From a virus: DNA of 42,770 nucleotides. The notes under the pieces are model-generated. The model was not told where the DNA came from. It did no database searches and worked only from the letters and a program-made list of their open reading frames with translations. The stretch is taken from positions 1 to 42,770 of IMG/VR virus record IMGVR_UViG_3300013137_001104; one strand, written 5' to 3'. How positions within the stretch are numbered: position 1 is the stretch's first letter; every line of letters begins with the position of its first letter. The position numbers were made by a program, and so were the translations under genes. Of this stretch, positions 5,023 to 42,023 are shown piece by piece.

Positions 5023-8000
5023 TTATTTTCCAACGATGACATCTTCAAGTCGTCGTCCGTCGGGCCATTGATAATACTTATTATCTTTGAAAAACTGAAT
5101 GATCTTTTGAACCTGATCCCGAGGAACAACCATCTTCTCAAAATTTTTGTCAAAGATCGAAAGCGATTGTTTAAAGTTGGTTTCGTTCCTACCCCTTTTC
5201 GCATTACCAACCCAATCATCGATGGTAGTTTTGCGGTTGCTTTTGATAAAGTCTTCCCCGCACTCACCAAAAACATCCCTGTTATACGAAAGCGCATCCA
5301 CTCTTGCCATCACATCAGACCGCCAAACCAACCCATAACCTTCATTTGATTTGGTTTGGCTAACGATGCGGGTGAATACGGAATTGCCACCCCCTGTCGC
5401 CATATCACTTTCTGGAGACGTACGACTCCAATCAAATCCTTTTCGGAATTTGTCAACAGTCGCAGTAAGATCCCCTCCATTATTAACGACCTTTTCAATC
5501 ATTACATCGTAGTCTGTTCCGGACCATAATTGATGTCGTATACGATACTTTTCCTTGAAATCCTCCCACTCTGGACCATTCAAATCAGGCCTGTATCTAT
5601 TCACCTTTCCGACATCAAATGCCGTCGCAATACCCTCTGGTTTATATTCAGAAACCTTAGTAATATCATACCCAGCCTTCTTGGACAACTCCCTTTGTAG
5701 ATACTCAATTTGCTTTTCTGCCGATTCATACGATGAAACATTGGAAATCAACGCTCGTCCAAAGTTGTCATTACGTGCATATGCTATCTGTTTGAGATAC
5801 ATCAATTCATCCTCAGCAGCAGTAGCACGTGTCAGATCGACCTTCAAACGGTCCTGAAGAACAGACATGATTCTTTCAATATCGATTGTCTGGTTGCCCG
5901 ATGTTTCTGCTCGCACCAATCCGCGGTGGGAGAACCAGATGTCGTCGGTGTTTGGCCAATACTTTACCTTGACACCATCAATCTCGGCCTCCAAATATTT
6001 ATCTTTCAATGCACGAATCACTTCATTTTTCTGTTGCGCAAATCCCTTTATATTTGTCTTTACATACATGGCGCCATCAGACTTAGTAAATGCAATCCCC
6101 GTTTCTATCTTTGTTACCTTGGGTGGAATGGCCTTTATGTTTCTAAACTTAGTTAATGCCTCTTTGAAGGTTGTATCATCGGGCATCTTGTATTTCCTGC
6201 CCTCTCCGGTTGTGATCACTTCTTTCAACCTTTCCAGCCAAGGTTTATAATGCTTCGCCATGGCGTCAACATCTGCATTGGAGAAAAGAGGATTGGCTTT
6301 TAGCGAATTGATTTCTTTTGCAAAAGCATCCAAAGTGGTTTTTGCTCGTTCAATATCCTTTGCTCGCAATGCTTCACCACCGCGAGATTGCATGGCAATA
6401 CCCCTGAAAGAATCCAAGATTGAAGAATGAAGTTCGTTTGTATTGTAAAAATGCGCCTTTTCAAAACTGGAGGCGTCAGCAATCGCATTCATTTTTTCTG
6501 CACCTTGACCCCGCAACTTGAATTGTACCGCAGTGACAGGCTTACCGGTAACATCCTTCTCATACCACACAAGGAACTGATGATCCTCAATCGCCTCTTT
6601 GTCGACTTTGATCACATACCCGTTAATTCTTGACGTTTCAATCGCCTGGTGCTCAAAATCGGAAACTGCATTTTCCAGATCCTTGGGCGCCTTTGCTATC
6701 GCCTCCTCAACCTTGATGTGGGGGAACTGCTCTTGAATGTATTTCTTCCGCGCAATTAACGTCTCTGCGAGGCGATCGCGCTCCACTTGATTAAGTGGTC
6801 CAAACTCATTAACGAGCTCCCTGATCTGTGAATCCGACACCGAGAGAACCTTGCGTGCTCCAGCATCAAGTTCCGATTGTTTGATTTTTTTGAACACAGC
6901 CGCTGCTTTTGGATTGGTTCTGCCATCTCTCATTGAAGATAATTCCAAAACCTTGTCGCTGAACTGACCGCCTTTGGCACCACCTTGTGCTCTGAATCTC
7001 AACGATCCGCCAACATCAACTCTGACGGCACGGATGCCATCTTTGATTTGAAGGTTATCGTAACTCATACCAACTACGTCCCAGTCACCAAGCCAGGCAT
7101 CAACAACGAAGTCATCATAGATACCCGCTCGCAAAGCCCCAGACTTCAGAAGTTCGGAATTTTTCTCAATCCCGTCAATGATTCTTGATGCAACCGCTTT
7201 CTCGCCATTGGCATTGATGATCTGAAGCTCTGGAACTTCAACGCCAGCAGCCTTGTAAAGCTTGCCCGCAAGGACTTCATTTCTCACCGTCTCCTCATTA
7301 CCTGGCATCTTGATATAGTAGCGCTCTGCAGGATTGTTGATGTTCCTATAAAACCCGCCCGTATTCGATCCCTCTTGTCCGGAATACTTTGTCATACTAT
7401 TGAAGTCAAGAGAGGCAGGCGCTTTCTCAACTACTGGTGACACCGGTTTAATATCAACACCGCTCAGTTGAGCAATTTTCTTGTCAATCTTTGCCTGCGC
7501 CTCCTCGGTTAAGAAATTGTAGGCATCCATCTGACCCTTCGATGCTGCCTTGCCCTTGGCAAGATTCTTGGTGTATTCACCTACAAGAGCAGACTGATTG
7601 GATTTGAACTTTGCAAGATCCTCCGGCAAGTCAAGATTATAAGCCGTCTTTCCCATCTCAACCGTTCCAGTCAATGCGCCTTGCTTCAATGGCGGTGGTA
7701 TGTATTCTGGAACTGCTTTTTCAGTTGCATTCAAACCCATTTGGCCCAATAGATCATCAACAGAGGCGGATGCCGCCTTTGTTGTGGTAAATTCAGAATA
7801 TCCTTTTGCGGATAATTGAGAGAGCGCCTTCTGTTCGACGGTTTTCTCCGCATACCCGAATTGAAACTCTGCGGGAACTTTTGACATCTGTTTTCCGGCC
7901 CATTCCTCAAAATACTTCGCCTTGGTGGATGCGGGTTGCTTTTCCCAGATATAGACGAGTTCCTCTTTTGTATACCCCGTTGTAGATTGCAGATCAATTT

Positions 8001-11000
8001 GATTAAGGTCGAGCCATCCTTTTTTTATCCCATCGTCAAGGAATTCCAATGCATGCGTCTCTGCCTGAGCATCGAGTCCCACAGGTTGGCGAACACCAAA
8101 CTTTCCAGAAAAATATTCTGGCCATGAAATTCCCATCGCATTCTTTTCCGAAGTTGCAATATCGGTCAGGCTCATTGTAAACTTATCGCTGATGGCATAT
8201 GGGTACACCTGGATAACATCAGGATCGATCTTCAATGCATAAAAATCGTCCATGGTATTGATTGAATGGTCAGGCAAACGCTCTAATTGCGACAAAGTTG
8301 TAATCTCATATTTGCTCACAGCTTTGCCTGCTGTAGATCCTGCCTTTATCTCCTCAACCATCTTGATGTCGGATGGACTGAGTAATTCAGCAGGAATCCT
8401 TGCCTTGGCAGCAACCCATTCCTCAAGAAATGGTTTCTTCAGAGAGGTATCAAGGCTTTGCCAGACCTTTGTGGCTTTACTTTTCCATGTAGAAGAAGCA
8501 AGTTCCCATTGATATTTTTTTTCTTCGTCTCCTGTAAATCCTTTCCATGGGGGCGTCTTTATCAAATCAGACAGATCGGTCATCTTTTTCTGTTCTATCA
8601 AATCCAAATCGCTCCAGAGTTTGCCATTGAGCACACCATCGTTTTTTGGCAGATCGGTTACCGCCTGCCACAATCTCTTTTCTGTTGGCCCCATCCATGC
8701 GGGTGGAGGAGAAACGCCAACGTTTGCCCATCCCTTCATGAGTGATTGTTTCACAGAGCTGTCCAACATATTCCAGAGTTCAGTTGACTGTTTTTTGAAC
8801 GCTGGTCCGGAATCAATCCATTCCCATGCTGGTGTTTTCATGTATCCATCAAGGATATTCAGAATATCCTTTTGTTTGACCGTCAGATCGGCAACCAACT
8901 TCCCGGAAATAGATCCAGGCTGACCTGGTATGCCTGTCTTTTTCTTGTAGGTCTCAATCGATTCTTGTAGCCACTTGACCTGGTCTTGAACTTTCATTAC
9001 TTCCAAATCGAATTTCAAGTGCTCCGCAAGCTGTTTAACCGCCTTGCCATCCGATGTGGCCAAAATATTTTTTTTCTCTGTAAGCGCTGTTGCTATTTGT
9101 TTGGCAAGACTTCCTTTTTTGTTTGGAACAAACATCGCCAGTTTCTCATAAGCACCCATCTCACCCCATCCGGGAACCTGGTTTCCAAGTTCATTGAATA
9201 TTGCCGTGCCTTTCTGGCTCCCAGAGAGAAGATTGGCAATCTTCTCTTTGGCAATCTTCTCCAATTCTTTTGCCTTTTCCATGACCGCCGCTGCTTTATC
9301 TTCTCCCTGCCAATACCCGAATCCGGATAGTTTTTTCAACTCTGCGTGTGCAACAGCTTCAGCAGACCCGGGCTTAATTCCCGCAAGATAAGATTCCCAG
9401 CTGTCCTGCGTTGGCTGTTTCATTATCTGATCTTCAAGCCACGATTTCACATCTTGGGGTTTCCACGTCGAGAGGATTTTTTGATTTGCTTCTGCCCAAA
9501 CTGTTTGTCCCTCTGGCATCTTGAGTAGCTTATCGATTTCCTGCAATGAAAACTTGATCTGTTTACCAAGATCACCATCGTAATATGCACGTTGTTCCCA
9601 CGGAGTCAGATCATCCCAATTGGATACCTGTTTCTGCATTGCAGAAAAGACATTTGGTGCCACCTTCTTCTCTGTCTCCAGGTATATCTTGGCATTGCTA
9701 TTGATCAAGTTCGCCTCCTCTTGAATGGCCTTGATCTTTCCTTCTGATCCAAGCGCTTTGAATACCGCACCCTTTACATTGCCGGGAATCGATGGTATAT
9801 CATTCATTGCAATAGATTCTGCAGATCCCGGTTTGATCAAATCAATGAAGAAATCGAATTTTGTGAATAGAGCTTCTTTCTCCGCCTGCACCGCTTTGAT
9901 CTTCACAAGAGGATCTGTCGCGTTGGTGATCGATCCTCTTTTGAATGCATTGACAAATGCCTGTCCTCCATCTGCCGTTGATGTAAGTGCAATCAAATCT
10001 GAATCGGCTTGCGTCTGTAATATTTTAACCTGTTCCGAAAGTTTAGAGTAGTAGGCGATTGGATCATCAATGAATTTGGTTTGGTTATATGCCTTGGAAC
10101 CGATTGTACCAATCTCACTTTGCCACACAGCTATCTGGTCTGCCGCGGCATTGTCCATCTCATACTTCAAATACTGGTACTGCGCGTTCTCACCAAGTTC
10201 CACCAAATTCGGGACTGCTGCGAGTTTCTTTTTTGCAATATCTGCCAATGTGGTATTACTCGCCAGCAATTTCTCTTTCAATGGCACAGCGATCTTGTCT
10301 TGATCGAGCAGCCGGAACCCAATCTTGAAATCACCCTTGCCGAGTTCGAGCGCCTTGGTATATTGTTCAATGAAATCCTGTGCGATCTTTTTATCGATTG
10401 CAGTATTGAGAAGATCGGTCAGTTGATTGGTTGGCACCAAATTGACCGCCTCTGATTCCCATCCCATCATGGTGGGAGAACCACCAGTCTTGACTCCAAC
10501 GTAATAACGAGTTGTCGAAGTCGTCTTCTGATAGTCCCCAAGATGATAGATCGGCCTTGCTTGCAATCCAGTTTCTTCAAAGACTTCCTTGATCGCAGTT
10601 GTTTGCAGATCAATAGGGCCTGGGGCATAAACCTTATCCCATGTGCCTTTGGGGAAAGTATTCTTGTATCCCCCGAATTGATTGGTCGGTGAATTGATCC
10701 AAATCTTGCCAGTCGCTTCATCGACGATAATCATTCCGGAAGAGTTTTTCAATCCCTGCGTTTCTTTCAATGCGGGTTGAAAGAAATCCCCGTACTTAAA
10801 TTCGAGCTTGCCATAGTTGGCTCCTCCTCCTTTGGCACCAGCAAAGGCACCTTCGATGGGATTATACAGGCCAGGAGGTAAAGATTGACCAGGGACGAAT
10901 TTTGCGACTTTTTCCGGGTCATTGATGGTCTTGAGCAGCCGCGCCTCTGCCCTGGCTGCTTTCTCTGCTTCGATTGATTGAACTGCATCCTTGTAAAACT

Positions 11001-12870
11001 GCGTGATCCCGCCTTTCTCTTGAAGGATCTTTCCCACTGTTGGGTCGGCGTTCTTCATCAATTCGATCTGTTGAGAAAACGCAGGCAGTGCTCCTGCTTC
11101 TGCAGCGGCAGTAACCATCAACGCTTCGAGCGCAACTTCCTTCTTTGCCAAGATGTCACCAAGGTTCGCCGCCAATTGTTTCAAGGTGAGAGGGTTGCCA
11201 GAGTTATCGATCAAATCCATCATGTCCAACTTATTCTCTGACCACATCTTCCACTTGCCTGGTCCGAGGACGCTTTTCTGGAATTCGACGGATTGAGTTT
11301 TCAGCCAATCATTGTATGTGAGGTTTGAGGGGACTGGACCATTCATCGATGCCCGTTCACCAGCCGGGATATTGTCAAGCTCTTTGATTTTGGAGGGGGG
11401 AAGTTGTGACTTGGGACCAGCCAATGCTGCCCATGATTTTGTAATCGGGATGGTTGTACTTCTGCAATTGTGGACAACAAATCCACGAGCGATATAACTT
11501 TCGTCTTCTTCAACACTAAAATTATAAAGCGTTCGGGCCTTTTTCAATCTCCATTTATTTATAACACAAATTTCATATTCGGAAAACTGGTAAAGTTCTT
11601 TATGGTTGCTCGCTATTCTGAGCACCTCTTTTTCAACACATCCAAAATTTTTATTTATTTGGTCTTCTCCAAATCTAAAAACTTGCCATCCCTCGCCTTC
11701 AATATTTTTTTGACGGATATTGTCTTTTTCTTTATCCTTATGCCAATACGATCCATCAACTCGCTTACACTTATGAGACAACAAAACAACCTTGTCCCCA
11801 CTCTTCAATTCTCCTGCACTAATCCATCCTTTATCAGTCAAAATGGGATGACCAGAAGTAACAGAAATGGGCAAATGACTTCCGCGGCCTTTCAATGCAA
11901 ATTTTACGACATTTGGCGTTTGAAGTGGCGTCCGAATAATTTCAGTAACATTTCTGAATCTTCCCTTATGAGTAAGAACAAAATCTCCGGTTTTTATGTT
12001 TCTGATTGCAACCCAACCTTTTGATGTGTAAATAGGAGTTTGTCCATCAATAAAACAATTAAAATGAAATGGCGGGCCTCCGGGGTATGGGAAACCATGA
12101 CCGATGGGCACAAGATCAAAAGTCCAACGTTTACCATCGAGTGCTCTGCACAACTCCGTCGTTCGATCATCAAGAGTCGCAACCACTTCAAACCCATCAA
12201 GGACGTCTACATTGGCTTTGTATGTTTCCAATCTGACTGCATTCGAAACCTGGGAAACGCTCGTCCTCACCAGCGCTGTTGCTTCTCTCTTGGTAACGCT
12301 CATGACTCCTGGGGTTGTTTTGGTGCCTCTGACTCGATTGATCAAATCACCAACGGTCTCTCCCTGCACAAGTCCTATCTGAATCGCTTGAGTACCTGCA
12401 GCCATCGATGCAGAGAGCTTTGCTTTTGTATCCGCGGATTGCTTCTCCCACCACTTCCCGATGGTATTACCTTGAATCATCGTATTTTCAACAATTGCCT
12501 TGACTCCTGAAGGAGTGAGATTGATATCAAATAGATCGGCGCCAACAGAACCATTGAATGAATCAACAACATTCTTGGCTTGCAAACCCCCCATCTTTTT
12601 CAACTGGGAATCAATGTGCTTGTTAATATTGCCATAACCGGAATCAAGGATTGCGCTGATTTCCTCGTTGAGCTTTTCAAGACGTGCCGTCTTGTATTTG
12701 GTCATCGTGGGAGCGGTTGGATCATTCTTGGCGATAGCAGCGACAATCTCGTCTTGGGTACCTTGCAAAAGAGATTGCACCCGCTTGTTCAGACTTGCGG
12801 AATATTGATCAAAATATACGCCATCCTTAACAGCAGCGTTGTAAATCTTGTCGGGTATATTTTCTGGCAT
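5023..12870 (-). CDS. Giant MuF 'polyvalent' head protein with intein, Nudix and kinase-like domains
   Basis: A 2615-residue protein just after the portal gene (3-nt gap). Residues 195-271 and 469-477 form a MuF/SPP1 gp7-like domain (VRTSVSQVSNAVR, LDDRTTELCRALDGKRW, PPFHFN joined to CRSTTIPI), split by an intein at 272-468. Residues about 705-815 are a Nudix domain: FPKGTWD and KEVFEETGL with E762, E765, E766. Residues 900-1700 are alpha-helical with repeats (KPGSAE at 1013-1018 and 1166-1171; tryptophan-rich TPxW...EW modules). Residues about 1825-2010 look like a HipA/PI3K-type kinase: YYIK (K1853), R1862-NE1864, and the VDVGGS motif at D1951. Residues 2440-2615 form a conserved-looking C-terminal domain (TGGGNSVFTRI, NETNF) whose function I cannot name. 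MuF polyvalent proteins are packaged and injected with DNA, so these domains may act in the host early in infection; that role is inference. Confidence 0.9.
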   Translation of the reverse strand: MPENIPDKIYNAAVKDGVYFDQYSASLNKRVQSLLQGTQDEIVAAIAKNDPTAPTMTKYKTARLEKLNEEISAILDSGYGNINKHIDSQLKKMGGLQAKNVVDSFNGSVGADLFDINLTPSGVKAIVENTMIQGNTIGKWWEKQSADTKAKLSASMAAGTQAIQIGLVQGETVGDLINRVRGTKTTPGVMSVTKREATALVRTSVSQVSNAVRLETYKANVDVLDGFEVVATLDDRTTELCRALDGKRWTFDLVPIGHGFPYPGGPPFHFNCFIDGQTPIYTSKGWVAIRNIKTGDFVLTHKGRFRNVTEIIRTPLQTPNVVKFALKGRGSHLPISVTSGHPILTDKGWISAGELKSGDKVVLLSHKCKRVDGSYWHKDKEKDNIRQKNIEGEGWQVFRFGEDQINKNFGCVEKEVLRIASNHKELYQFSEYEICVINKWRLKKARTLYNFSVEEDESYIARGFVVHNCRSTTIPITKSWAALAGPKSQLPPSKIKELDNIPAGERASMNGPVPSNLTYNDWLKTQSVEFQKSVLGPGKWKMWSENKLDMMDLIDNSGNPLTLKQLAANLGDILAKKEVALEALMVTAAAEAGALPAFSQQIELMKNADPTVGKILQEKGGITQFYKDAVQSIEAEKAARAEARLLKTINDPEKVAKFVPGQSLPPGLYNPIEGAFAGAKGGGANYGKLEFKYGDFFQPALKETQGLKNSSGMIIVDEATGKIWINSPTNQFGGYKNTFPKGTWDKVYAPGPIDLQTTAIKEVFEETGLQARPIYHLGDYQKTTSTTRYYVGVKTGGSPTMMGWESEAVNLVPTNQLTDLLNTAIDKKIAQDFIEQYTKALELGKGDFKIGFRLLDQDKIAVPLKEKLLASNTTLADIAKKKLAAVPNLVELGENAQYQYLKYEMDNAAADQIAVWQSEIGTIGSKAYNQTKFIDDPIAYYSKLSEQVKILQTQADSDLIALTSTADGGQAFVNAFKRGSITNATDPLVKIKAVQAEKEALFTKFDFFIDLIKPGSAESIAMNDIPSIPGNVKGAVFKALGSEGKIKAIQEEANLINSNAKIYLETEKKVAPNVFSAMQKQVSNWDDLTPWEQRAYYDGDLGKQIKFSLQEIDKLLKMPEGQTVWAEANQKILSTWKPQDVKSWLEDQIMKQPTQDSWESYLAGIKPGSAEAVAHAELKKLSGFGYWQGEDKAAAVMEKAKELEKIAKEKIANLLSGSQKGTAIFNELGNQVPGWGEMGAYEKLAMFVPNKKGSLAKQIATALTEKKNILATSDGKAVKQLAEHLKFDLEVMKVQDQVKWLQESIETYKKKTGIPGQPGSISGKLVADLTVKQKDILNILDGYMKTPAWEWIDSGPAFKKQSTELWNMLDSSVKQSLMKGWANVGVSPPPAWMGPTEKRLWQAVTDLPKNDGVLNGKLWSDLDLIEQKKMTDLSDLIKTPPWKGFTGDEEKKYQWELASSTWKSKATKVWQSLDTSLKKPFLEEWVAAKARIPAELLSPSDIKMVEEIKAGSTAGKAVSKYEITTLSQLERLPDHSINTMDDFYALKIDPDVIQVYPYAISDKFTMSLTDIATSEKNAMGISWPEYFSGKFGVRQPVGLDAQAETHALEFLDDGIKKGWLDLNQIDLQSTTGYTKEELVYIWEKQPASTKAKYFEEWAGKQMSKVPAEFQFGYAEKTVEQKALSQLSAKGYSEFTTTKAASASVDDLLGQMGLNATEKAVPEYIPPPLKQGALTGTVEMGKTAYNLDLPEDLAKFKSNQSALVGEYTKNLAKGKAASKGQMDAYNFLTEEAQAKIDKKIAQLSGVDIKPVSPVVEKAPASLDFNSMTKYSGQEGSNTGGFYRNINNPAERYYIKMPGNEETVRNEVLAGKLYKAAGVEVPELQIINANGEKAVASRIIDGIEKNSELLKSGALRAGIYDDFVVDAWLGDWDVVGMSYDNLQIKDGIRAVRVDVGGSLRFRAQGGAKGGQFSDKVLELSSMRDGRTNPKAAAVFKKIKQSELDAGARKVLSVSDSQIRELVNEFGPLNQVERDRLAETLIARKKYIQEQFPHIKVEEAIAKAPKDLENAVSDFEHQAIETSRINGYVIKVDKEAIEDHQFLVWYEKDVTGKPVTAVQFKLRGQGAEKMNAIADASSFEKAHFYNTNELHSSILDSFRGIAMQSRGGEALRAKDIERAKTTLDAFAKEINSLKANPLFSNADVDAMAKHYKPWLERLKEVITTGEGRKYKMPDDTTFKEALTKFRNIKAIPPKVTKIETGIAFTKSDGAMYVKTNIKGFAQQKNEVIRALKDKYLEAEIDGVKVKYWPNTDDIWFSHRGLVRAETSGNQTIDIERIMSVLQDRLKVDLTRATAAEDELMYLKQIAYARNDNFGRALISNVSSYESAEKQIEYLQRELSKKAGYDITKVSEYKPEGIATAFDVGKVNRYRPDLNGPEWEDFKEKYRIRHQLWSGTDYDVMIEKVVNNGGDLTATVDKFRKGFDWSRTSPESDMATGGGNSVFTRIVSQTKSNEGYGLVWRSDVMARVDALSYNRDVFGECGEDFIKSNRKTTIDDWVGNAKRGRNETNFKQSLSIFDKNFEKMVVPRDQVQKIIQFFKDNKYYQWPDGRRLEDVIVGK
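11467..12057 (-). other. Mini-intein in the MuF domain with nuclease remnant
   Basis: A 197-residue in-frame insertion (residues 272-468) splits the motif that in MuF domains reads PPFHxNCRSTT. It starts CFIDGQTPIY (block A), has the block B TxxH at T338-H341 (VTSGHPILT), and ends SYIARGFVVHN before +1 Cys469, so all class 1 splicing residues (Cys1, TxxH, HN, Cys+1) are present. Residues 371-404 (VDG, D383, then GWQVFRF) match the C-terminal half of a DUF559/Vsr-type nuclease but lack its catalytic core. It is therefore probably splicing-competent but no longer mobile by itself. Confidence 0.88.
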
Positions 12871-15291: not shown

Positions 15292-15368
15292 TGGTCCGGG
15301 CAGTAGGATTTGAACCTACGACCTCGTGCTCCCAAAGCACTCACGCTACCTGGCTGCGTCATGCCCGG
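15292..15368 (-). tRNA. tRNA-Pro(UGG)
   Basis: A complete cloverleaf reads on the minus strand: 7-bp acceptor stem CCGGGCA/TGCCCGG, D-arm ACGC...GCGT, anticodon loop TTTGGGA giving anticodon UGG, T-arm GTAGG-TTCAAAT-CCTAC, discriminator A and an encoded CCA end. The only flaw is an A-G mismatch at the top of the anticodon stem (27-43). UGG reads proline codons, chiefly CCA. It lies alone between an epimerase gene and two tiny basic ORFs. Confidence 0.95.
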
Positions 15369-27884: not shown

Positions 27885-28364
27885 CTATATTGATACCCGA
27901 TCCAATGTTGTGATGATGATTCTGCAATTGTCACAAAGGTGGTAGTAATCGGGAGTCCCACCGAGTCCCTTGAAGACCTCTGATTTGAAGACCCTTTCAC
28001 ATCTCAAACAAATGACCTCTACATAATTCTTTTCTTTTTTCTTGTATCCTTCCGCTCTCTTGATAACCGGTCGGCCAAGCGTGGCGCTGGTCTCGCCGCC
28101 GAATTTCCTCCTACAAATTATACACCAGTCAGGATGTTCTGCTTTGGCATGAAAACACGTGATTGATTTTGTCGTATTGCATTTGGTGCAACGCTTCTTT
28201 CGTCCGTAAAAACTGATGCGAAGGATATTTCTGCGGATGGTATAAATATCCGCGATCTTCATTTGTAAGATGTCTGCAATATCTTGATCTGTTTTTTCCT
28301 CCGCAACCAACAATCTTACGGAATCAAGCACCTCTTGCGATACGTCTTTTCGTTGTAGGGGCAT
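27885..28364 (-). CDS. Helix-turn-helix protein with two zinc-binding motifs
   Basis: A 159-residue protein. ATG 28364 follows GGGAG; an in-frame extension would lie inside the Rad50-like gene. Residues 5-45 contain a helix-turn-helix (VRLLVAEEKTDQDIADILQM, KIADIYTIRRNILRI). Two cysteine clusters follow: RCTKCNTTKSITCF with WCIICRRKFG, and ICLRCERVFKSEV with HLCDNCR. HTH plus zinc ribbons suggests a DNA-binding regulator or a late transcription factor. An HNH-type nuclease is less likely because no HNH residues are seen. It sits between recombination and terminase genes. Confidence 0.75.
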   Translation of the reverse strand: MPLQRKDVSQEVLDSVRLLVAEEKTDQDIADILQMKIADIYTIRRNILRISFYGRKKRCTKCNTTKSITCFHAKAEHPDWCIICRRKFGGETSATLGRPVIKRAEGYKKKEKNYVEVICLRCERVFKSEVFKGLGGTPDYYHLCDNCRIIITTLDRVSI

Positions 28365-29010
28365 TAGCCGGATCTCCCTTGGCAAGTTCAGCATGAGATT
28401 TGTTGCCATCATGTGTAATATAATAGGCCCTGTCGGCAATTTCTATCAATTCGTCCTCATGTGTAATGACAATAAGTTGGAAGTCCAATTTGTGACTGAT
28501 CTCTTTCAGAATCTGTCCAGCCAATGTAACAAGCTTTCCAAGATTTTTCATTGGCTCGTCCAGCACGATGACATTTCTTGATCTTGGTTTCTCCAAACTC
28601 CATAGAACCACTCTAAGCGCGAAAGATATGATGTCGACGATCCCACCTCCCATATCTTCGGCGGGATCAAATACTCTATTCCTGCCATTGACCACCTCTC
28701 TGATCTCTGGCTGGCACTCCATTTTATTTCTCTTGCGCTCGAATTCAAGAACAAATTGAAACGGCCGATCAAATACAGATCGGATCGCCATGGTTACGAG
28801 ATTCTCGACCTTCTCCTTGAATCTCTTCTGAGTGATCGTTGCAACCTCGGTCAAGATCCATCGGGCTTTGATTTTCTTCTCAACAAGTTCTTTCTCTGCG
28901 AGGATCTGTCCAACGGTCTGATCGATCTTCTCTTCCAGTAACCGATGGCGTGCCTTGGCCTCAGCAAACCCTTGGGTGATTTCTGTGATCGTCATCTGTG
29001 CGTATGGCAT
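28324..29010 (-). CDS. C-terminal half of a split Rad50/SbcC-type ATPase
   Basis: A 228-residue protein. Residues 5-75 are a short coiled coil (EKIDQTVGQILAEKELVEKK). The ABC signature is GGGIVDIISFALR (121-133), Walker B is VIVLDEP (D151, E152), and the H-loop is VITHEDEL (H184). There is no Walker A, which is on the separate gene at 30351-31583. ATG 29010 is chosen because AAAGGA lies 7 nt upstream. Together the two halves should rebuild one ATP-binding head of the Mre11-Rad50 (SbcCD, T4 gp46/47) complex that processes DNA ends. The C-terminus is basic. Confidence 0.9.
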   Translation of the reverse strand: MPYAQMTITEITQGFAEAKARHRLLEEKIDQTVGQILAEKELVEKKIKARWILTEVATITQKRFKEKVENLVTMAIRSVFDRPFQFVLEFERKRNKMECQPEIREVVNGRNRVFDPAEDMGGGIVDIISFALRVVLWSLEKPRSRNVIVLDEPMKNLGKLVTLAGQILKEISHKLDFQLIVITHEDELIEIADRAYYITHDGNKSHAELAKGDPANAPTTKRRIARGA

Positions 29011-29014
29011 TTTA

Positions 29015-29269
29015 TTATCCTTTGTAGCCGGCGAGTTTCTCTTGTGCGATCTTGAGTAACTCCTCTCGCCTCTCTTGTTTGGCCTCAATATCCATGCCCA
29101 GCCCTTCCAGTTTATCATACGCTTCATCAAGAGTCTTGACGGAAAAATCTTTCTTGATCCGCTCCAAGATCGAATTCCGTTCCCCCTCTTTTACCGCGAC
29201 ATCCCTTTTCAGATCCTCAATTTTCTTTTTGAGTTCTGTCAAGGTCGTCTGTTCATCTTGCTTGGCCAT
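29015..29269 (-). CDS. Small coiled-coil protein in the Mre11-Rad50 cluster
   Basis: An 84-residue protein, almost entirely heptad-patterned (TLTELKKKIEDLKRDVAVKE, IKKDFSVKTLDEAYDKLEGL). AGGAGGACAGA precedes the ATG. It ends 4 nt before the Rad50 C-half ATG, so it may belong physically with it, for instance as a detached piece of the Rad50 coiled coil returning from the hook. This is inference from location and heptads; no motif is seen. Confidence 0.78.
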   Translation of the reverse strand: MAKQDEQTTLTELKKKIEDLKRDVAVKEGERNSILERIKKDFSVKTLDEAYDKLEGLGMDIEAKQERREELLKIAQEKLAGYKG

Positions 29270-29278
29270 TCTGTCCTC

Positions 29279-29431
29279 CTATTTCCATTTGTTGATGATT
29301 CTCGCCGGTTTCTTTCCATTCTTCTCCAACCGGGTCATCGTTGCATTCAGGTCTTTTTCATCGCGAACATATGCGAGTTCTTTGTTGCGTGAATCCAGGA
29401 TCACTTTGTAAGGCACTTTCTTCCTGCTCAC
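29279..29431 (-). CDS. Small basic protein (50 aa), GTG start
   Basis: A 50-residue protein, MSRKKVPYKVILDSRNKELA at the start and KKPARIINKWK at the end. It starts at a GTG that overlaps the TGA of the Mre11-like gene (GTGA) with GGAGG 4 nt upstream, and its TAG stop lies inside the ribosome site of the next gene. This tight coupling supports it as a real gene despite its size. Highly basic and probably binds nucleic acid or the complex; no family recognised. Confidence 0.7.
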   Translation of the reverse strand: MSRKKVPYKVILDSRNKELAYVRDEKDLNATMTRLEKNGKKPARIINKWK

Positions 29432-30354
29432 AACCCCTCCCTTTTCGTGCCGATATACCTGGCAAGCACATCCATCACGGATTTGTCGACATTGTTTTCT
29501 TTTGTGAATTTGAGAAGATTTTCAACAAAGGAGACGCCAAGGTTTTCATCCTTGCCGGATTTGATCGAGTCAACAAATTCATCCAGCAAGCCCTCTGCCT
29601 CTGTCTTGCGTTCGATATGATCACGAGAGAGAATCTTGGTTGCCTCGGTATGGGGGATCTCAATATACCGACTTTTCTTTCTGTCATCGGTATCGAGCAG
29701 ATATACAGACGGTTTATGTTGGAGGTTATATTCCGTTGCCTCTTTTCTCAACATCGGGCCGACATTGATCAACTGCCGATGCGTCTTTGGATCATATACA
29801 TCAAAAGTCCGATGAATGTCCCCAACCAAAATGAAATCATACCCAGGGTGATCATACAAATATTTGTCGGCGGCAGTAAATTGATGACCAGGCCAAAGAG
29901 CGGCGTCAGATATACCCGCATGGATAATCCCCACGGTAAAGCACGAACGCTCAATCTGCGCCAGTTCTTGCCCGAAATTCGCGCCAAATAGATCAATGCC
30001 TTGGACTCGGATTGGCTTTTCAGGATTCAATGCGATAACCAAACCCACCTTTTCCAAGATACCCAGCGTTGTTCGCTCTCTGGTTTCATCGGAATACATG
30101 TAGTCATCATGCTGCCCCCGCACTCCATAAATCTTGACTCCGTATTTCTTGAGCAGATCAATCACCACGGGAAGGAGCATCCAGCTGCGGGGCTTGTTGA
30201 ACATATCACCAGCCTGCAAGATCGCCGCATCCTCTTTTCGTGCCAAGCCCAAAATGAATTCAAACTTAGCGAACTGAACATCAACCAAATTATCCAATCT
30301 TGCTTCTGGATTCTCGGTCAACAAATGCATATCGCTCACGGCAATGAATTTCAC
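29428..30354 (-). CDS. Mre11/SbcD-like nuclease (T4 gp47-like)
   Basis: A 308-residue metallophosphoesterase. Motifs in order are AVSDMHLL (D-x-H), ILQAGDMFN (GD), YGVRGQHDDY (GNHD variant with glutamine), IIHAGIS (H), and LVGDIHRTFDV (GD-x-H), all the metal ligands of Mre11/SbcD. A C-terminal helical part (FVENLLKFTKENNVDKSVMD) is the likely Rad50-binding region. It has 3'-5' exo- and endonuclease activity controlled by the Rad50 ATPase. Its gene lies between the two halves of the split Rad50 and overlaps the N-half stop (ATGA). Confidence 0.93.
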   Translation of the reverse strand: MKFIAVSDMHLLTENPEARLDNLVDVQFAKFEFILGLARKEDAAILQAGDMFNKPRSWMLLPVVIDLLKKYGVKIYGVRGQHDDYMYSDETRERTTLGILEKVGLVIALNPEKPIRVQGIDLFGANFGQELAQIERSCFTVGIIHAGISDAALWPGHQFTAADKYLYDHPGYDFILVGDIHRTFDVYDPKTHRQLINVGPMLRKEATEYNLQHKPSVYLLDTDDRKKSRYIEIPHTEATKILSRDHIERKTEAEGLLDEFVDSIKSGKDENLGVSFVENLLKFTKENNVDKSVMDVLARYIGTKREGL

Positions 30355-31583
30355 AGTACTGCTCCGATCTCTTTCAGATGTTTGGTGTTAATATCTGCAA
30401 AACATGTCGGGCATTTCTTGACATCCCGAAGAACATCCATGTAACGCTCTTTTGCTTTTTTCAAATCCTCAACAAAATCCTCTCGCTCTTGATCTGTACA
30501 CTCATATTGCATCAATTGTGTTTGTAGGTGTTTGAACACCAAAACATCTTCGTCCAATTTCTCTGCCTTGACAACGTATCTCTCGGCCTTGATCGCCTCT
30601 GTCCAAACCTCATATTGAGCGCGATAGACCTCATACTCCTCAATCAATCGTTTGAGCAAATCTCTCTTGTCGGTATTGAATTCAGACAGAGCAAGATCCC
30701 GATCAATAACCAGCAGGTCGTCCAATCTGAATTGTGAGTCAATGATTCCATCCGTCAGTTTGTTATGCTCCGAAATCAGATCGGCAAGCGTTCGCCATTC
30801 ATCGATGTCTTGTTGTAGTTTTTCTGCCTTCTTAACGTATCGCTCTGCTACCATGAACTCGTCCAACTTCTCGCTCTCTCTTGTCGCATCCTCAAATTGG
30901 ATAAGTGCATTGTCCAGGTCGTTCCTTTGTATCAACATCCTGGCGATTATTCCAACGATCGTCTGCAATTCGACGATCGCCTTTTCTGTCTCCTCAATAT
31001 CTTTGTAAACATCAATCTCTTGAAGGAGTGACTTCGCCTCTGCCTCCATACGGACAATATCTCTATTGGTTGCATTGATCTCATTGGTTAACTCGGAAAC
31101 CCAATCATCGACCTCCTCCAATCTTGTGATGCGGTTGATCGTCTTTGCAATCTCCCCGCCTGACGATGATACCAGAAATGGAGGATCGAATTGGCGCTGG
31201 ATATTCAATTCGGAGATATTGAGCACCGCTTGTACCTGGTCAGGCACCTGGTCCTTGGGAGAAGAAAACTCTGTACCACCAATTTGGTACTGGGTTGCCG
31301 TTACAACTTTTTCTCCCTCTTTGTTGACCCTAATTGATTTGATTACGGAGATGTCCTCTTGACCATCAATCCCGATTGTTATCTTTGTCTGTCCTTTCTC
31401 ACCAACGAAGTCAGAAAAGAACTTGCCACCCAGAGGACGGTTATAAATCAGCAATCGCATAGCCCTCGCAAGCGCAGTCTTTCCCGCCTGGCTGAGTCCG
31501 AAGATAACGTTGACGCCACGATCGAAGTCAATCCTGGTTTTCTCGTGGCTCTGAAAATTTTCAAGTTGTAGGAATCGGAACAT
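30351..31583 (-). CDS. N-terminal half of a split Rad50/SbcC-type ATPase, ending at the zinc hook
   Basis: A 410-residue protein. It starts FRFLQLENFQSHEKTRIDFD, Walker A is GLSQAGKT (29-36), and Q-loop/lobe I extends to about 130 (SELNIQRQFDPPFLVSSSGG). Residues 145-385 are coiled coil with an internal near-repeat (AERYVKKAEKL and AERYVVKAEKL). The protein stops just 16 residues after CPTC (C391, C394), the zinc-hook CxxC. Ordinary Rad50 would continue back along the coil to Walker B; here that half is a separate gene at 28324-29010. The split coincides with the natural turning point of the molecule. Confidence 0.92.
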   Translation of the reverse strand: MFRFLQLENFQSHEKTRIDFDRGVNVIFGLSQAGKTALARAMRLLIYNRPLGGKFFSDFVGEKGQTKITIGIDGQEDISVIKSIRVNKEGEKVVTATQYQIGGTEFSSPKDQVPDQVQAVLNISELNIQRQFDPPFLVSSSGGEIAKTINRITRLEEVDDWVSELTNEINATNRDIVRMEAEAKSLLQEIDVYKDIEETEKAIVELQTIVGIIARMLIQRNDLDNALIQFEDATRESEKLDEFMVAERYVKKAEKLQQDIDEWRTLADLISEHNKLTDGIIDSQFRLDDLLVIDRDLALSEFNTDKRDLLKRLIEEYEVYRAQYEVWTEAIKAERYVVKAEKLDEDVLVFKHLQTQLMQYECTDQEREDFVEDLKKAKERYMDVLRDVKKCPTCFADINTKHLKEIGAVL

Positions 31584-36600: not shown

Positions 36601-38691
36601 TCAATGAGCAGCCATGTAACAAGCATACGTGAACCCTGCCTTTCCCGATTGAATGAAGGAGTCCAGAAAACCCTCCATGATGATCGCAGCGTCTTTATTT
36701 CCAGAATTCAGAAGCACCGCATTCATATAACCCAGGATCGCATAGCGCATCTTCTCAACCTTGTCTGTGTCCTTTTCGCCTTCGTCTTTGGTCAAAAGCA
36801 CTTTCAAAATCGGTGCGATTGTCTTCCAATCGTGCTTTTCCAACAGAGCCTTGCAAAGATCAACCACGGTCTTTTCGTTGAAGCTATAATCGACCACAGC
36901 GTTGATCAATTCATCATCGTCCTGAATATCGATCACAGAGTCCAAAATCACCAATGCCTGCCTCGGCGAACCTCCGCAAACCTTGCAGATTTCATCCAGC
37001 GCGGCTGACGGGAAGTTGTTGATTTTTTCCTTCTCCAGCACATTTTTCAACAGCAGTTTTATATCCCAGCCAAGCAATGATTGGACCTGAAAGGTAGTGC
37101 ACCTGGTTCTAACCGCCTTGATCAATTTTTCCGGGTCTGTTGTGCAGAGAATCAGGTACACATAGTCGGGGGTATCTTCGAGCAACTTTAATAACGCATT
37201 TTGTGCATCGTTTGTAAGTTTGTGGCAATTATGGACAAGACATCCATTTGCGTAATAGGAAGGATGTCCATCTATTTCAAGGTCGTAGAATTCGACATAC
37301 CCTTGATTTTTCTCTGTATCACCGATAATACCGACGAAGGATCCATCATTATTTCCTTGTTTGTAAACCTCAACACTGTCCACCCTAATTCTGTCAATTT
37401 GGTCGTCTTTTTCTGATCGAGCAACATATTTTCTTTCAATAGATGCCCAATCCCGTCGACCTCTATTGCAAGTTTCAAAATCTCGTTTCCGATATCTACC
37501 TTGTAACAAGTGGGAAAGCCACTCTTTACCCTTGAACTTGAGAATGTTTTGACAGGAACTTCCATCGGCCATCCTAACGCGCTTGCCAACAAATATTGAG
37601 CAGGCGGTATCTTTCCATTCCCTCCACGTTCTCCAGACCAAATATGCAAAGTGCCCTTGATTCTTTTCGTCGCTTTCCCTTTCTCGATAATCATTGGATC
37701 GTGAAATGGATTCTTTATCTTCATCCGTCGTGAGCGTTCTCTGGATAATTTTTCTTTTATTTCTGTAGAAAGATTCAAATGGGAATTGCTGATCTTCAAC
37801 GCAGTTTCCTCCGTACATATATGAGGATAATGAACTTCCCTCCATGCACAAACACATTTGTTGGAACAAAATCTTTTCTGATTCTTTTTGTGAGTCACAA
37901 AATAGGTTATTAAATTCCCGCACCATTCGCAAGGCCTTTTTGCAGTAATACCCAACCCTGCTTCTTTGTTCCTTAATTTCTGTCCGCAGCGTTTGGAACA
38001 TGTGCGTTGAGTATCCTTTAGCTCTTTGAACTCTGCCAAACATATCTCGCATATCTTCATCTTTTTTTGCCTCCAAGGGTGATCTGTTGGAATTCATTAT
38101 ATCACTCTTTCTGCTAAAAATAAAGATATTCTTATCCAGATCAATCGCCTTTTCCCATCCAAATTCAGTAAAAAACAGATGGTCTTTGCTACAGACAATG
38201 TCTGGCCCTTCTGATAATTTGACCTTTACAACCCTGTCTGTTGCAACCTTGTTTTTGAAAACATTCTTAACTTTACATTTTCCGGTCATATTATACACAA
38301 TATCTCCCACTTGAACCGTCTCTATTTTCCTTTTACCAAGCGGAGTCGAAACTATAGTCCCAGAAGCAAAACATTCATCCAAGAGGAACATCTTGATACT
38401 TCCCTGGTGAGGATAATACGCAGCATCTTCGACCAATTCTCGGATGGAGTCAATCCCCCTAACATTTGCAGAATTCAACTCCCTAAAATCCAAATCCGAG
38501 CATCCCAACTGATTCTTGATAATTCTCGCGATTGTTGTCTTGCCGCAACCAGATGGACCAGAGAAGAGAAAAGAGTGCGGGATTCCATCTTTACGTGACA
38601 TGATACTTTTGATGGAATCGATTGCGCTTTTGTTGCCAACCACATCGTCCAATGTTGTTGGACGGTATTTCAAATGAAGTGCCTGTGTCAT
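36601..38691 (-). CDS. DnaX-like clamp loader ATPase, interrupted by an intein
   Basis: A 696-codon ORF: a 314-residue AAA+ clamp loader after removal of a 382-residue intein. Extein motifs are LKYRPTTLDDVVGNKSAIDS (start), Walker A FSGPSGCGKTTIARI (about 43-57), Walker B MFLLDE (101-106), cut by the intein directly after DE, then CHKLTNDAQNALLKLLEDTP. Sensor 1 is LILCTTDPEKL, the SRC-like arginine finger is VRTRCTTFQ, and lid/collar is KVCGGSPRQALVILD. It opens the sliding clamp for loading at primer ends. The ATG overlaps the polymerase stop (ATGA). Without splicing the ATPase cannot form. No tau-like extension is present. Confidence 0.94.
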   Translation of the reverse strand: MTQALHLKYRPTTLDDVVGNKSAIDSIKSIMSRKDGIPHSFLFSGPSGCGKTTIARIIKNQLGCSDLDFRELNSANVRGIDSIRELVEDAAYYPHQGSIKMFLLDECFASGTIVSTPLGKRKIETVQVGDIVYNMTGKCKVKNVFKNKVATDRVVKVKLSEGPDIVCSKDHLFFTEFGWEKAIDLDKNIFIFSRKSDIMNSNRSPLEAKKDEDMRDMFGRVQRAKGYSTHMFQTLRTEIKEQRSRVGYYCKKALRMVREFNNLFCDSQKESEKILFQQMCLCMEGSSLSSYMYGGNCVEDQQFPFESFYRNKRKIIQRTLTTDEDKESISRSNDYRERESDEKNQGHFAYLVWRTWREWKDTACSIFVGKRVRMADGSSCQNILKFKGKEWLSHLLQGRYRKRDFETCNRGRRDWASIERKYVARSEKDDQIDRIRVDSVEVYKQGNNDGSFVGIIGDTEKNQGYVEFYDLEIDGHPSYYANGCLVHNCHKLTNDAQNALLKLLEDTPDYVYLILCTTDPEKLIKAVRTRCTTFQVQSLLGWDIKLLLKNVLEKEKINNFPSAALDEICKVCGGSPRQALVILDSVIDIQDDDELINAVVDYSFNEKTVVDLCKALLEKHDWKTIAPILKVLLTKDEGEKDTDKVEKMRYAILGYMNAVLLNSGNKDAAIIMEGFLDSFIQSGKAGFTYACYMAAH
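37228..38373 (-). other. Intein in the clamp loader Walker B motif
   Basis: Residues 107-488 of the clamp loader ORF. Block A is CFASGTIVSTPLGKRK with ETVQVGDIVYN; block B is DIVCSKDHLFF with H171 (SxxH in place of TxxH). The C-terminal blocks are VEFYDLEIDGHPSYYANG and CLVHN before +1 Cys489. Cys1, His, Asn and Cys+1 of a class 1 intein are in place. About 255 residues between the splicing blocks (211-465) have no recognisable in-frame domain, because that DNA encodes an endonuclease in another frame. Confidence 0.92.
37272..38060 (-). CDS. Vsr/DUF559-type homing endonuclease nested out of frame inside the intein
   Basis: A 262-residue protein read in the +1 frame relative to the clamp loader ORF. 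Two Cys4 fingers (C4, C7, C21, C25 and C44, C47, C65, C69) are followed by a NUMOD3-like DNA-binding segment (KNPFHDPMIIEKGKATKR, 116-133). A PD-(D/E)XK-related nuclease domain follows: YKVDIGNEI (D189), LAIEVDGIGHL (E200, D202, H206), D215, GWTVLRF (226-232). GGAGG lies 9 nt before ATG 38060, inside the intein coding sequence. It ends just before the C-terminal splicing block. The layout matches the Vsr-like endonucleases described with fractured genes and I-Bth0305I. It would cut intein-less alleles to spread the intein. Confidence 0.88.
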   Translation of the reverse strand: MKICEICLAEFKELKDTQRTCSKRCGQKLRNKEAGLGITAKRPCEWCGNLITYFVTHKKNQKRFCSNKCVCAWREVHYPHICTEETALKISNSHLNLSTEIKEKLSRERSRRMKIKNPFHDPMIIEKGKATKRIKGTLHIWSGERGGNGKIPPAQYLLASALGWPMEVPVKTFSSSRVKSGFPTCYKVDIGNEILKLAIEVDGIGHLLKENMLLDQKKTTKLTELGWTVLRFTNKEIMMDPSSVLSVIQRKIKGMSNSTTLK

Positions 38692-41600
38692 ATTAACCCT
38701 CCCAAAGTCTCTATTTTTTCAACAAAGTTTTTTACGCCTGCTTGGAATTCCGATTTGTGCTCGGGGTTTCTCAATACTGCCGCCGGGTGAATGCACCAGC
38801 AAATCCACATGCCATATTTTTCTGACCATTCTGTCTTTCCATTGTGTTTAGTGATGCCTCCATCCTCTCCCTTGAAGTATTTTAAGGAACTGTTTCCGAA
38901 CGCAAGCGATAATTTTATCTCGGCTTGTTTCAGTTCCTCGTCCAACCATTTGCTGCACGCCCTCAAGTGGGATTCATTTGGTGTCTTGATCGATCCCGGA
39001 TAACACTTCGCACAATTGGTTACGTGAAAGAATCTACGGACCATATCGTACTTCGCAAACTCTTTCCAAACCAGATCGCCAGCACGGCCAACGAATCCTT
39101 TCCCCTCAACATCCTCGTCACCTCCAGGAGCCTCGCCGATGATCGCGATGTTATATCTGCCTGGCGATGGCATCACAGGGCGGCGGCACTGACCTCTCAA
39201 TGCACAAGCATCACAATACAACAAATCGGGATTCTGGAACTTGGTCGTCTCACGAATCATCCTGATCCTGCCGCCTGGCGGAAGTGAGAGATTCAAAATT
39301 GAGTCAAGATCCTTTGGCACAGATGCAAACCCAAGTGTGTTACACAAAACAGGGAATTCATCTCGTTTGTCCTGTTTCACCTCAAATGTAAAATACTTGG
39401 AAAGATCCTCATCGGGAGTGTCGCCAATGGCGCCAACAGATCGCAATATTTTCTCGATCTTTCCACCCCCTTTTTGTGCAACTCCCAGATTGAAAAAGCC
39501 CTGTGTTGACTGCACTCGATAGTTCGCACAATCAAATGCTGTTTTATCACCGATGCCTTTGATCTCTATGAATGGTATATACAAGCACCCCTCTTTCACA
39601 ACCCATGACTTTGCTTCTGAAACACCAACTTTCGGAAGAACAACTTTCAACCCAAGCCGGCGTGCCTCTTTGACGATCTCTTCTTTCTTTCCGTCGGATC
39701 CAAACGACAGATTGGCACAAATAAACTCGGCAGGAAAATACAGTTTGCACCACGCACACCAATAGGCGATCATTGCATATTCGATGGAATGGGATCGGTT
39801 GAATGAATAGTTGGAATGCTTCTCCAGAGCATCCCAAAATTCCAATGCTTCTTTCTCTGATAGGGTGTCCTCTTTTTTGCAGCCGTCAACAAACATCTGT
39901 TTGTATTCCTCAAACGCCTTGATGTCTCTCTTCTTTGCGATGATCTTTCGGATTTTGTCCGCAGTGGCATACGATAATCCCGCCACCTGATTGATCACTT
40001 GCATAACCTGTTCTTGATACACGATTATCCCGAAGGTATCCTTGGTTATGCGCTCGTATGCGCGATGTTTCTTTTTCCATTTGGCGCCATGTTTTCTCTT
40101 GGTGAAATCAGCCGTCATACCAGAATCGGCAGGTCCAGGTCTGACCAGAGCAATCACGTCGCTCATGAGGCCGAATGTATTTATGCCGATCTCTTTACAA
40201 AGTTTGGTTGTGGAATAAGTATTGAATTGAAAGACCCCAACTGTCTCGCCTTTGGATAGCATTTCAAAGACCTGTTGGTTATCCAATTCGATCTTTTCAA
40301 AGACGATCTTCTTTCCCCGGTTCACCTCGATCAATCTCCGCGTCTCATTGAGAATCGACAATGTATTGAGCCCAAGGATGTCCAACTTCATCAACCCGAC
40401 ATACTCTGCGTCATCCTTGTCCCAATTCACAACCTCCTGATTCGATCTCACAGACAAATTGCATCTCGTGCCCAGAGTCAAATCCTCCCCAGATACAACC
40501 AAGGCAGCGGCATGCTGGCCACATCCTCTGACCTGCCCTTCCAACTTCATTGCCGCGGCAACAACGTCAGGGTATTCTCTCTTAAACTGCTGGCCCTCCG
40601 GAGTCATGGATGCTTTTTCGATCGTTGTGTTGTCGGACTGTTCATCATCCTCAATACTCTTTGCAAACTCGTCAACACGGAAGTATGGAGTATCAAAAAC
40701 TCTGGCAACATCTCTGATCGCGGCACGTCCTTTCATATCCATAAAGGTCGAAACGGATGCGATATTATTCTTGCCGTACATCTCCTCCAGGTGCCCTCTG
40801 ATCAATGGTCTTTTTACATCTTCAAAATCCAGATCAATATCTGGATAATCAATGCGATCCTCTGCAATGAATCTTGAGAAGAGCAGGTTGAATTGGATTG
40901 GATCGACTGTTGTAATCCCGATCAAGTAGGCAATCAAACTACCACCGACCGATCCTCTCCCAGGTCCTATCATAATGTTGTTCTTTCGACACCATTCAGT
41001 AAGTTCCCACACGACGAGAAAATAGCGCACGAAGTTCTTGCGTCTGATCATGTCAAACTCTTCGTTGAACCGGTCAATATAAGTCTGGCTCCATTCTGGC
41101 ACGCCAAAGATTCTTTCGTACCCATCGCAACAGAGCTTTTTCAGAAACGCATCCTCTGGTTCATTTTTCATCAAAATGGATGGCAAGAAGATGTCGTGTT
41201 TTTTGATTTTGAATCCACAACACTTCTCTGCAACATCTGCAGTATTGCTCATGGCCAAAAGACACTGCACTTTGCTCAAGATCCCCTGTTTACCAAATGC
41301 GGTCTTCATCTGCTCTGCCGATCGCATGAACAGGTCTTTCGTTTCAAATCGGAAGCGATCTTTGTCTGTCCACTTCGCCTTGGTCTGAATAGCCAACAAA
41401 ACCTCATGAACCAGAGAATCATCCTCCCGCACATAATGGCAATCATTCGTCGCAATAAGAGGCAGTTCCATCTGTGCCGATAGATCGATACACTTGCGAT
41501 TTACGGACTCCTGATCGGGAAGTATATGGGGCATAACCTCCAAATAAACATCACCTGTGTACCTCTCGCTCAACATCCTGATGAAAGCAATTCCGCGAGG

Positions 41601-42023
41601 ATCGACAATGCACGAGAATCCGCAACCAGTCATGAACACAAGACCCGCGCCATGAACAAGGAGAGTTTCAAAATCCGTCCTGGGTTTATAATAGAATCCG
41701 TGAAGATTCGCCTTGGTCAAGACGTGACTGAGGTTTACAAATCCCTCCTCATTCTTGATCAAAACAGTGATGTGGAATCGTTTTTCTTTTGGAACTTTCA
41801 CTGAGGCATCCGGAACCAGATATAACTCGCACCCAAGAACGGGTTTGATTCCTTGTTTGTCTGCCTCTCTCTGAAATCTGATCAATCCGTCAATATTGCC
41901 GTGGTTAGTGATCCCGCAAAATTCTTGCCCGAGTTCTTTCGCTCTTTGCACATAATCTTTTGAACTGCCATAACCATCAAGTATACTGAATTCGTTGTGT
42001 ACATGTAGATGGCAAAATCTCAT
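38688..42023 (-). CDS. DNA polymerase III alpha (DnaE) fused to a uracil-DNA glycosylase domain
   Basis: A 1111-residue replicative polymerase. The PHP domain (1-210) starts FCHLHVHNEFSILDGYGSSK, with ITNHGNIDG. GPGRGSVGGSLIAYLIGI (353-370) and YPDIDLDFEDVKR (393-405) hold two palm aspartates, and VGLMKLDILGL the third. HSNYSFNRSHSIEYAMIAYW is the fingers motif. Helix-hairpin-helix lies near 840 (IKGIGDKTAFD). Instead of the usual OB and tau-binding C-domain, residues about 936-1111 form a family 4-type uracil-DNA glycosylase: four cysteines (YCDACALRGQC, NCAKC, RACSK), the catalytic loop IIGEAPGGDEDVEGKGFVGR, and IHPAAVL. It should copy DNA and monitor uracil. The start follows GAGGAAG. Confidence 0.94.
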   Translation of the reverse strand: MRFCHLHVHNEFSILDGYGSSKDYVQRAKELGQEFCGITNHGNIDGLIRFQREADKQGIKPVLGCELYLVPDASVKVPKEKRFHITVLIKNEEGFVNLSHVLTKANLHGFYYKPRTDFETLLVHGAGLVFMTGCGFSCIVDPRGIAFIRMLSERYTGDVYLEVMPHILPDQESVNRKCIDLSAQMELPLIATNDCHYVREDDSLVHEVLLAIQTKAKWTDKDRFRFETKDLFMRSAEQMKTAFGKQGILSKVQCLLAMSNTADVAEKCCGFKIKKHDIFLPSILMKNEPEDAFLKKLCCDGYERIFGVPEWSQTYIDRFNEEFDMIRRKNFVRYFLVVWELTEWCRKNNIMIGPGRGSVGGSLIAYLIGITTVDPIQFNLLFSRFIAEDRIDYPDIDLDFEDVKRPLIRGHLEEMYGKNNIASVSTFMDMKGRAAIRDVARVFDTPYFRVDEFAKSIEDDEQSDNTTIEKASMTPEGQQFKREYPDVVAAAMKLEGQVRGCGQHAAALVVSGEDLTLGTRCNLSVRSNQEVVNWDKDDAEYVGLMKLDILGLNTLSILNETRRLIEVNRGKKIVFEKIELDNQQVFEMLSKGETVGVFQFNTYSTTKLCKEIGINTFGLMSDVIALVRPGPADSGMTADFTKRKHGAKWKKKHRAYERITKDTFGIIVYQEQVMQVINQVAGLSYATADKIRKIIAKKRDIKAFEEYKQMFVDGCKKEDTLSEKEALEFWDALEKHSNYSFNRSHSIEYAMIAYWCAWCKLYFPAEFICANLSFGSDGKKEEIVKEARRLGLKVVLPKVGVSEAKSWVVKEGCLYIPFIEIKGIGDKTAFDCANYRVQSTQGFFNLGVAQKGGGKIEKILRSVGAIGDTPDEDLSKYFTFEVKQDKRDEFPVLCNTLGFASVPKDLDSILNLSLPPGGRIRMIRETTKFQNPDLLYCDACALRGQCRRPVMPSPGRYNIAIIGEAPGGDEDVEGKGFVGRAGDLVWKEFAKYDMVRRFFHVTNCAKCYPGSIKTPNESHLRACSKWLDEELKQAEIKLSLAFGNSSLKYFKGEDGGITKHNGKTEWSEKYGMWICWCIHPAAVLRNPEHKSEFQAGVKNFVEKIETLGGLI

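Follow-up and report, generated by a model that had tools for sequence, protein, structure and literature searches.

A probable naturally split Mre11-Rad50 system of phages and Bacillota, with a rebuilt arm and a small coiled-coil subunit

The window analysed here, the whole of a 42,770-base virus record of IMG/VR (IMGVR_UViG_3300013137_001104), comes from a tailed phage, of whose genome it covers a part, and includes genes for terminase and replication. It carries, entirely on the minus strand, a module that very probably encodes a naturally split Mre11-Rad50 (SbcCD-like) complex, in which two separately encoded halves of Rad50 (the N-half and the C-half) would assemble in trans, with the zinc hook on the N chain and a small protein, here called S, as a subunit of the arm. 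Comparison of sequences establishes the homology of the parts, a conserved site of splitting, the co-occurrence of the halves, the replacement of SbcC, a set of nested fusions, a link between S and the hook, and 47-residue repeats in the arm. The open reading frames (ORFs) and the hook motif are listed in order of transcription:

30351-31583, minus strand: Rad50 N-half, 410 amino acids (aa), an ORF matching AAA_23 (E=5e-11), phrog_16465 (E=1e-33) and structures of the Rad50 N-lobe and zinc hook, with a predicted fold that Foldseek assigns to Rad50; ATPase lobe I with Walker A and Q-loop at residues ~1-150, helical arm at ~155-388, CPTC at 391-394 and a 16-residue tail.
30405-30415, minus strand: approximate codons of the zinc-hook motif CPTC, 16 residues ahead of the N-half stop.
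29428-30354, minus strand: Mre11/SbcD-type nuclease (by homology), 308 aa, matching Metallophos, phrog_100 and Mre11 structures.
29279-29431, minus strand: basic ORF of 50 aa.
29015-29269, minus strand: S, an arm-associated 84-aa helix-turn-helix coiled-coil protein of a conserved family tied to hook-bearing loci.
28324-29010, minus strand: Rad50 C-half, 228 aa, with a coil of ~45-50 residues, a GGG-type signature, Walker B (LDEP) and an H-loop, identified by phrog_15167 (E=2e-25), the alignment of relatives and a structure match.

An initial annotation of this DNA had placed Rad50 in two genes parted next to the hook with Mre11 between them, which the ORFs, the profile matches and the conserved arrangement bear out, and had given the N-half a Walker A motif and a stop 16 residues past CPTC, both of which can be read in the ORF at 30351-31583. 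Its signature, Walker B and short coil in the C-half also stand, but not the start: the listed C-half ORF (28324-29130, 268 aa), which begins at a TTG, shares 116 bases with the 84-aa ORF, and the alignment of relatives begins only near its residue 41, so the start is taken to be the ATG at 29010 rather than the TTG at 29130, and the true gene is likely 28324-29010. Mre11 does lie between the halves as annotated, but in one of several gene orders: Mre11-N-S-C was tallied at 49 loci, N-Mre11-S-C (the order of the studied phage) at 13 and N-S-C-Mre11 at 5, with others besides, and the S gene adjoins the C-half or the N-half gene in nearly all loci. The 50-aa ORF is present but not conserved; no homologue was found in any relative, other ORFs hold its slot elsewhere, and it is probably an incidental gene in a variable position.

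The N-half has the Walker A sequence GLSQAGKT, a Q-loop glutamine, and a long helical region followed by CPTC and the short tail. In the alignment of its family GxxxxGK[ST] and Gln131 are invariant, as are both hook cysteines in 26 N-halves, and the chain extends 3-36 residues beyond the hook (median 17.5, n=76 N-halves). The family profile, compared with solved structures, finds Methanocaldococcus and Pyrococcus Rad50 at the top, and its final 70 positions match the zinc hooks 1l8d and 6zff. In the AlphaFold2 model lobe I is confident, the long arm is helical for most of its length, and the chain closes in a confidently predicted hook hairpin and a short helix; a Foldseek search with the predicted N-half places Rad50 structures at the top. 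Because the end of the profile matches hook structures and the hairpin is confidently predicted, the N chain has a complete zinc hook.

The best solved match of the C-half family profile is Pyrococcus Rad50 (E=1.6e-16), as chain B of a head that was deliberately made of two chains (3qkr, 1ii8, 1f2t). Its lobe II has a signature, Walker B and H-loop homologous to those of Rad50, the signature reading GGG(I/V), not LSGGE. This xGGG(I/V) signature (28444-28650 in the studied phage) is conserved throughout the split family. Used alone to search viral contigs, the C-half found no match, and its alignment offered no block of sufficient conservation. The Mre11 family profile matches structures of Mre11 and SbcD nucleases.

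The same split arrangement recurs in ~70 other loci of phages and bacteria, located in IMG/VR contigs, Bacillus phage vB_BboS-125, Microbacterium phage Magritte and contigs of Bacillota. The search of other phages that the initial annotation had suggested thus found the arrangement there and on bacterial chromosomes as well. The cultured phage vB_BboS-125 carries the same two half genes, in the order N, an AP2-domain gene, S, C, a 118-aa ORF and Mre11. This Mre11 gene (L001 9238-10218) lies in the gap between gp36 and gp37 and is left unannotated in the public record. In phage Magritte the two halves are far apart and the zinc hook is absent. A full-length Rad50 in the same genome, which the initial annotation had named as grounds for rejecting the split, was found neither in the 42.8-kb fragment nor among eight records of related phages, of which two are complete genomes. 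No description of a natural split of Rad50 or SbcC was found in the open-access literature, a scope in which an account in a closed journal could be missed; a survey of jumbo phages describes SbcC and also polymerases that are split, whereas a split SbcC is not among its findings (PMC7824862).

Among 299 sampled Bacillota genomes searched with N-half and C-half profiles built in this analysis, the N-half occurs in 49, the C-half in 48 and both in 48, and neither alone occurs in the other 250 (Fisher p ~5e-55). The split Rad50 is accordingly present in ~1/6 of the sample. The canonical SbcC model TIGR00618 (E<=1e-10) is matched in 123/299 genomes, comprising 3/49 of those with a split N-half (two of them weakly) versus 120/250 of the others (Fisher p = 6e-9), in a search that scored only a few candidates per genome; in bacteria, the split system takes the place of canonical SbcC. 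In Pseudobacteroides cellulosolvens (G001), one contig carries both Mre11-N-S, ahead of rimO, and the C-half, behind folD, with ~1.1 Mb between them; Acetivibrio alkalicellulosi (G002) has Mre11-N-S on one contig and the C-half on another, each beside the same neighbours as in P. cellulosolvens. Since the halves are kept at separate chromosomal places in these two Clostridia, they are evidently working genes and not debris.

Natural fusions join the same parts. In six related genomes a single chain of ~684-783 aa comprises Mre11 and both lobes, and in four others the two lobes share a chain whose gene lies beside that of Mre11; with or without Mre11, the fused proteins keep the head order N then C. 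The fusions tie N-half, C-half and Mre11 together as parts of one machine. All ten fused loci are without CxxC, long arm and S gene. In a FastTree phylogeny of both lobes, the split family is separate from canonical SbcC, and within it the fused proteins that were sampled make up a single nested clade; fusion and loss of the arm are therefore derived, and arm, hook and S were lost together in the fused clade.

These observations bear on three other accounts of the module. It is scarcely credible that the split is an artefact of sequencing or assembly, or a gene in decay after a mobile insertion: the layout is unusual, and different ORFs lie between the halves in other phages, but one split site is shared by ~70 phage and bacterial loci, the halves are open with conserved active-site motifs, and two Clostridia maintain them apart. 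The reading was rejected on the recurrence of the arrangement, and the sequencing error that the initial annotation had raised as a way to undo the split is excluded, as is chance, by the ~70 loci. It is very improbable, too, that the halves are independent proteins with separate functions, such as an SMC-like regulator and an ABC protein; PHROGs does file them as unlinked families (exonuclease and ATPase), and phage Magritte has the genes far apart, but they co-occur almost perfectly, are found fused N then C in single chains, and correspond to complementary lobes of one ATPase fold. The ATPase halves do match profiles of LmuB, GajA, AriA and mad3 weakly and in part, which points towards anti-phage defence (a Lamassu, Gabija or MADS system), an identity that we consider highly improbable: the module has no effector, Mre11 and S are without a match, the bacterial modules replace SbcC, and the phage neighbours are DnaE, a clamp loader, a RecA-like protein, a 5'-3' exonuclease and terminase. 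Lacking a full-length ATPase match and an effector gene, the defence-system reading was rejected.

The initial annotation had taken Rad50 to be simply split at the hook, which does not hold for the arm. Canonical SbcC of Bacillota has two arms of ~330-400 residues each (n=19), whereas the coil of the C-half is ~45 residues in all loci, within a total of 184-268 aa (median 218). The N-arm of the split family ranges from ~130 to 426 residues, with clusters at ~237, 283 and 330, i.e. in steps of ~47, and has a period of 47 residues (z = 38 over 53 bacterial arms, with z = 34 at offset 94; z = 11.6 over 19 phage arms, but only 2.0 for the arm of the studied phage alone). The 19 canonical SbcC of the same phylum, treated in the same way, have no 47-residue period (N-arm z = -1.2, C-arm z = -0.9). 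Because the C-half coil has ~45 residues versus ~350 in the canonical protein and the N-arm is rebuilt from 47-residue repeats, the split Rad50 is, on the evidence of these alignments, not merely a canonical Rad50 cut at the hook; its return strand is gone.

S is present in 70/70 hook-bearing loci versus 0/10 hookless fused loci (p = 4e-11; loci holding both halves, with related sequences counted separately, so that such p-values are upper bounds on surprise). Profiles identify 68/70 of these S genes; the other two, 84-aa S-like ORFs just ahead of the C-half (L030 9927-10181, L036 9462-9716), were read by eye. A genome-wide search for S in four fused genomes found chance-level coils only, and the S profile matches only generic coiled coils among solved structures. 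S is 74-117 aa long (median 85.5) and is predicted from its sequence to form two antiparallel helices. On average it has the strongest ribosome-binding site of the four genes, by a small difference and with start sites picked by best score; in the studied phage its gene is preceded by AGGAGG. Several copies of S would fit this strong site, which is weak evidence. S is most likely a component of the arm, as one S at one place or as several copies along the repeats.

The 84-aa ORF had been annotated as a possible supply of extra coil, and its association with the arm is upheld by the distribution of S; a one-for-one make-up of the missing length is not, as the length of S does not correlate with that of the N-arm (Spearman 0.22, p=0.18). 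Accordingly, it is distinctly unlikely that S is the missing return strand at 1:1, with the N-arm pairing with the C-coil and S end to end: the strict tie of S to the hook-bearing form and the adjacency of its gene to that of a half would suit such pairing, but the N-arm varies by 47s while S and the C-coil are near constant. It is possible, if rather unlikely, that the N-arm is lined by S in multiple copies, each 47-residue repeat having its own, with the number of repeats setting the length of the arm. This arrangement is consistent with the restriction of the 47-residue repeat to the N-arm of the split family, with the independence of S length from arm length, with the joint loss of S and arm, and with the ribosome-binding site of S; its support is indirect, however, the difference in ribosome-binding sites being small and the structural models not revealing how the repeats fold. 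We propose tentatively, at somewhat less than an even chance, a broader account in which the long arm is formed by the N chain alone, as modular 47-residue repeats that lead to the zinc hook and are lined by S (perhaps one per repeat), while the C-half contributes to the head only; arm length would evolve by gain and loss of repeats, and one lineage would have dropped arm, hook and S while keeping a fused Mre11-Rad50 head.

For the split Mre11-Rad50 complex as a whole, what follows is inference as to how the proteins assemble and in what ratio, what they do, and how they serve the phage in end processing and recombination-dependent replication. Lobe I of the N-half and lobe II of the C-half would fold in trans into one ABC ATPase head; the two-chain Pyrococcus head, whose chain B the C-half matches best, is a precedent. 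Two heads would sandwich ATP and dimerise, and Mre11 would dock at the head and the root of the coil and cut DNA ends. The long arm and zinc hook would be borne by the N chain only, with S as a helical-hairpin arm subunit whose partner is either the N-arm or the C-half's short coil, and the hooks of N chains would tether two complexes. The ATPase state would then reach the hook only via the N-arm (and S), not via two covalently linked strands. In the phage, the complex may process DNA ends in recombination-dependent replication, alongside the neighbouring RecA-like protein, 5'-3' exonuclease and DnaE.

Several points weigh against this proposal. The structure predictions are of single chains only, the arm is of low confidence, and two N-half models, in which lobe, hook and a mainly helical arm can be seen, do not reveal how the 47-residue repeats pair. 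By alignment, a glycine of the signature replaces the serine of LSGGE, and the D-loop is atypical, so that ATP hydrolysis may differ. The Mre11 clade of the studied phage keeps six of eight metal-site positions, two ligands being altered (Asn-to-Gln at residue 81 in the GNHD motif, His-to-Asp at residue 179 in the GHxH motif). Because the window is a fragment, a further Rad50 could lie elsewhere in the phage genome. As a separate observation, the two ligand changes in Mre11 covary in 9 of 10 sequences, Asp being present in 9/9 Gln sequences versus 1/16 others.

Other genes of the window have features of their own. The gene for a clamp loader (gamma/tau-like AAA; 36601-38691, minus strand) contains an intein of ~380 residues, whose Hint and intein-splicing domains lie between residues 106 and 484 of the AAA protein, and the adjacent gene (38688-42023, minus strand) encodes DnaE (DNA polymerase III alpha) with a C-terminal family-4 uracil-DNA glycosylase domain at residues ~935-1100. 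An ORF of 2615 aa (5023-12870, minus strand) is unusually long for the stretch, and a tRNA-Pro (TGG) gene lies between late genes at 15292-15368 (minus strand). In a related locus (L034 5200-7572), an intein that includes a LAGLIDADG-like domain appears to interrupt a ThyX-like thymidylate synthase gene.

It has long been asked how head, coil and hook communicate in Rad50, and models mostly assume one folded-back chain with two equal strands, an assumption that the split system challenges. A system in which the return strand is missing and which has armless fused relatives offers a separable test of functions that need the arm and functions of the head only. The finding also gives names and partners to two phage families that were not linked, and names genes in ~1/6 of the sampled Bacillota, mostly genomes without canonical SbcC and without an assigned end-processing enzyme of this kind.

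With canonical SbcCD and Mre11-Rad50 (E. coli, archaeal and eukaryotic), the split system shares Walker A, the Q-loop, Walker B, the H-loop, the CxxC hook and the Mre11 partner. It differs from canonical Rad50 and SbcC in having two chains in place of a single one with two equal antiparallel arms, and from canonical SbcC in the shortening of the return arm from ~350 to ~45 residues, the 47-residue repeat of the N-arm and the extra conserved subunit S. The engineered Pyrococcus Rad50 head (1f2t/1f2u, 1ii8, 3qkr) is alike in that the N-lobe and C-lobe are separate chains that form a working head; it is armless, whereas the split of phages and Bacillota is natural and comes with arm, hook and S. 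Fusions of Mre11 and Rad50 (MRFP/SbcDC, such as Mimivirus R555) are known in viruses, plasmids and bacteria including Firmicutes, and contain a coiled coil (PMC3175470); the present fusions with Mre11 (G057, G325, G369, G314, G360, G334) lack coil, hook and S and fall inside the split clade. In PHROGs, the N-half corresponds to phrog_16465 (exonuclease) and the C-half to phrog_15167 (ATPase), neither of which is linked there to the other, to Rad50 or to S. Phage T4 has a Rad50/Mre11 pair, gp46/gp47, that acts in recombination-dependent replication; T4 gp46 is one chain and is without S, whereas the split system has two Rad50 chains plus S.

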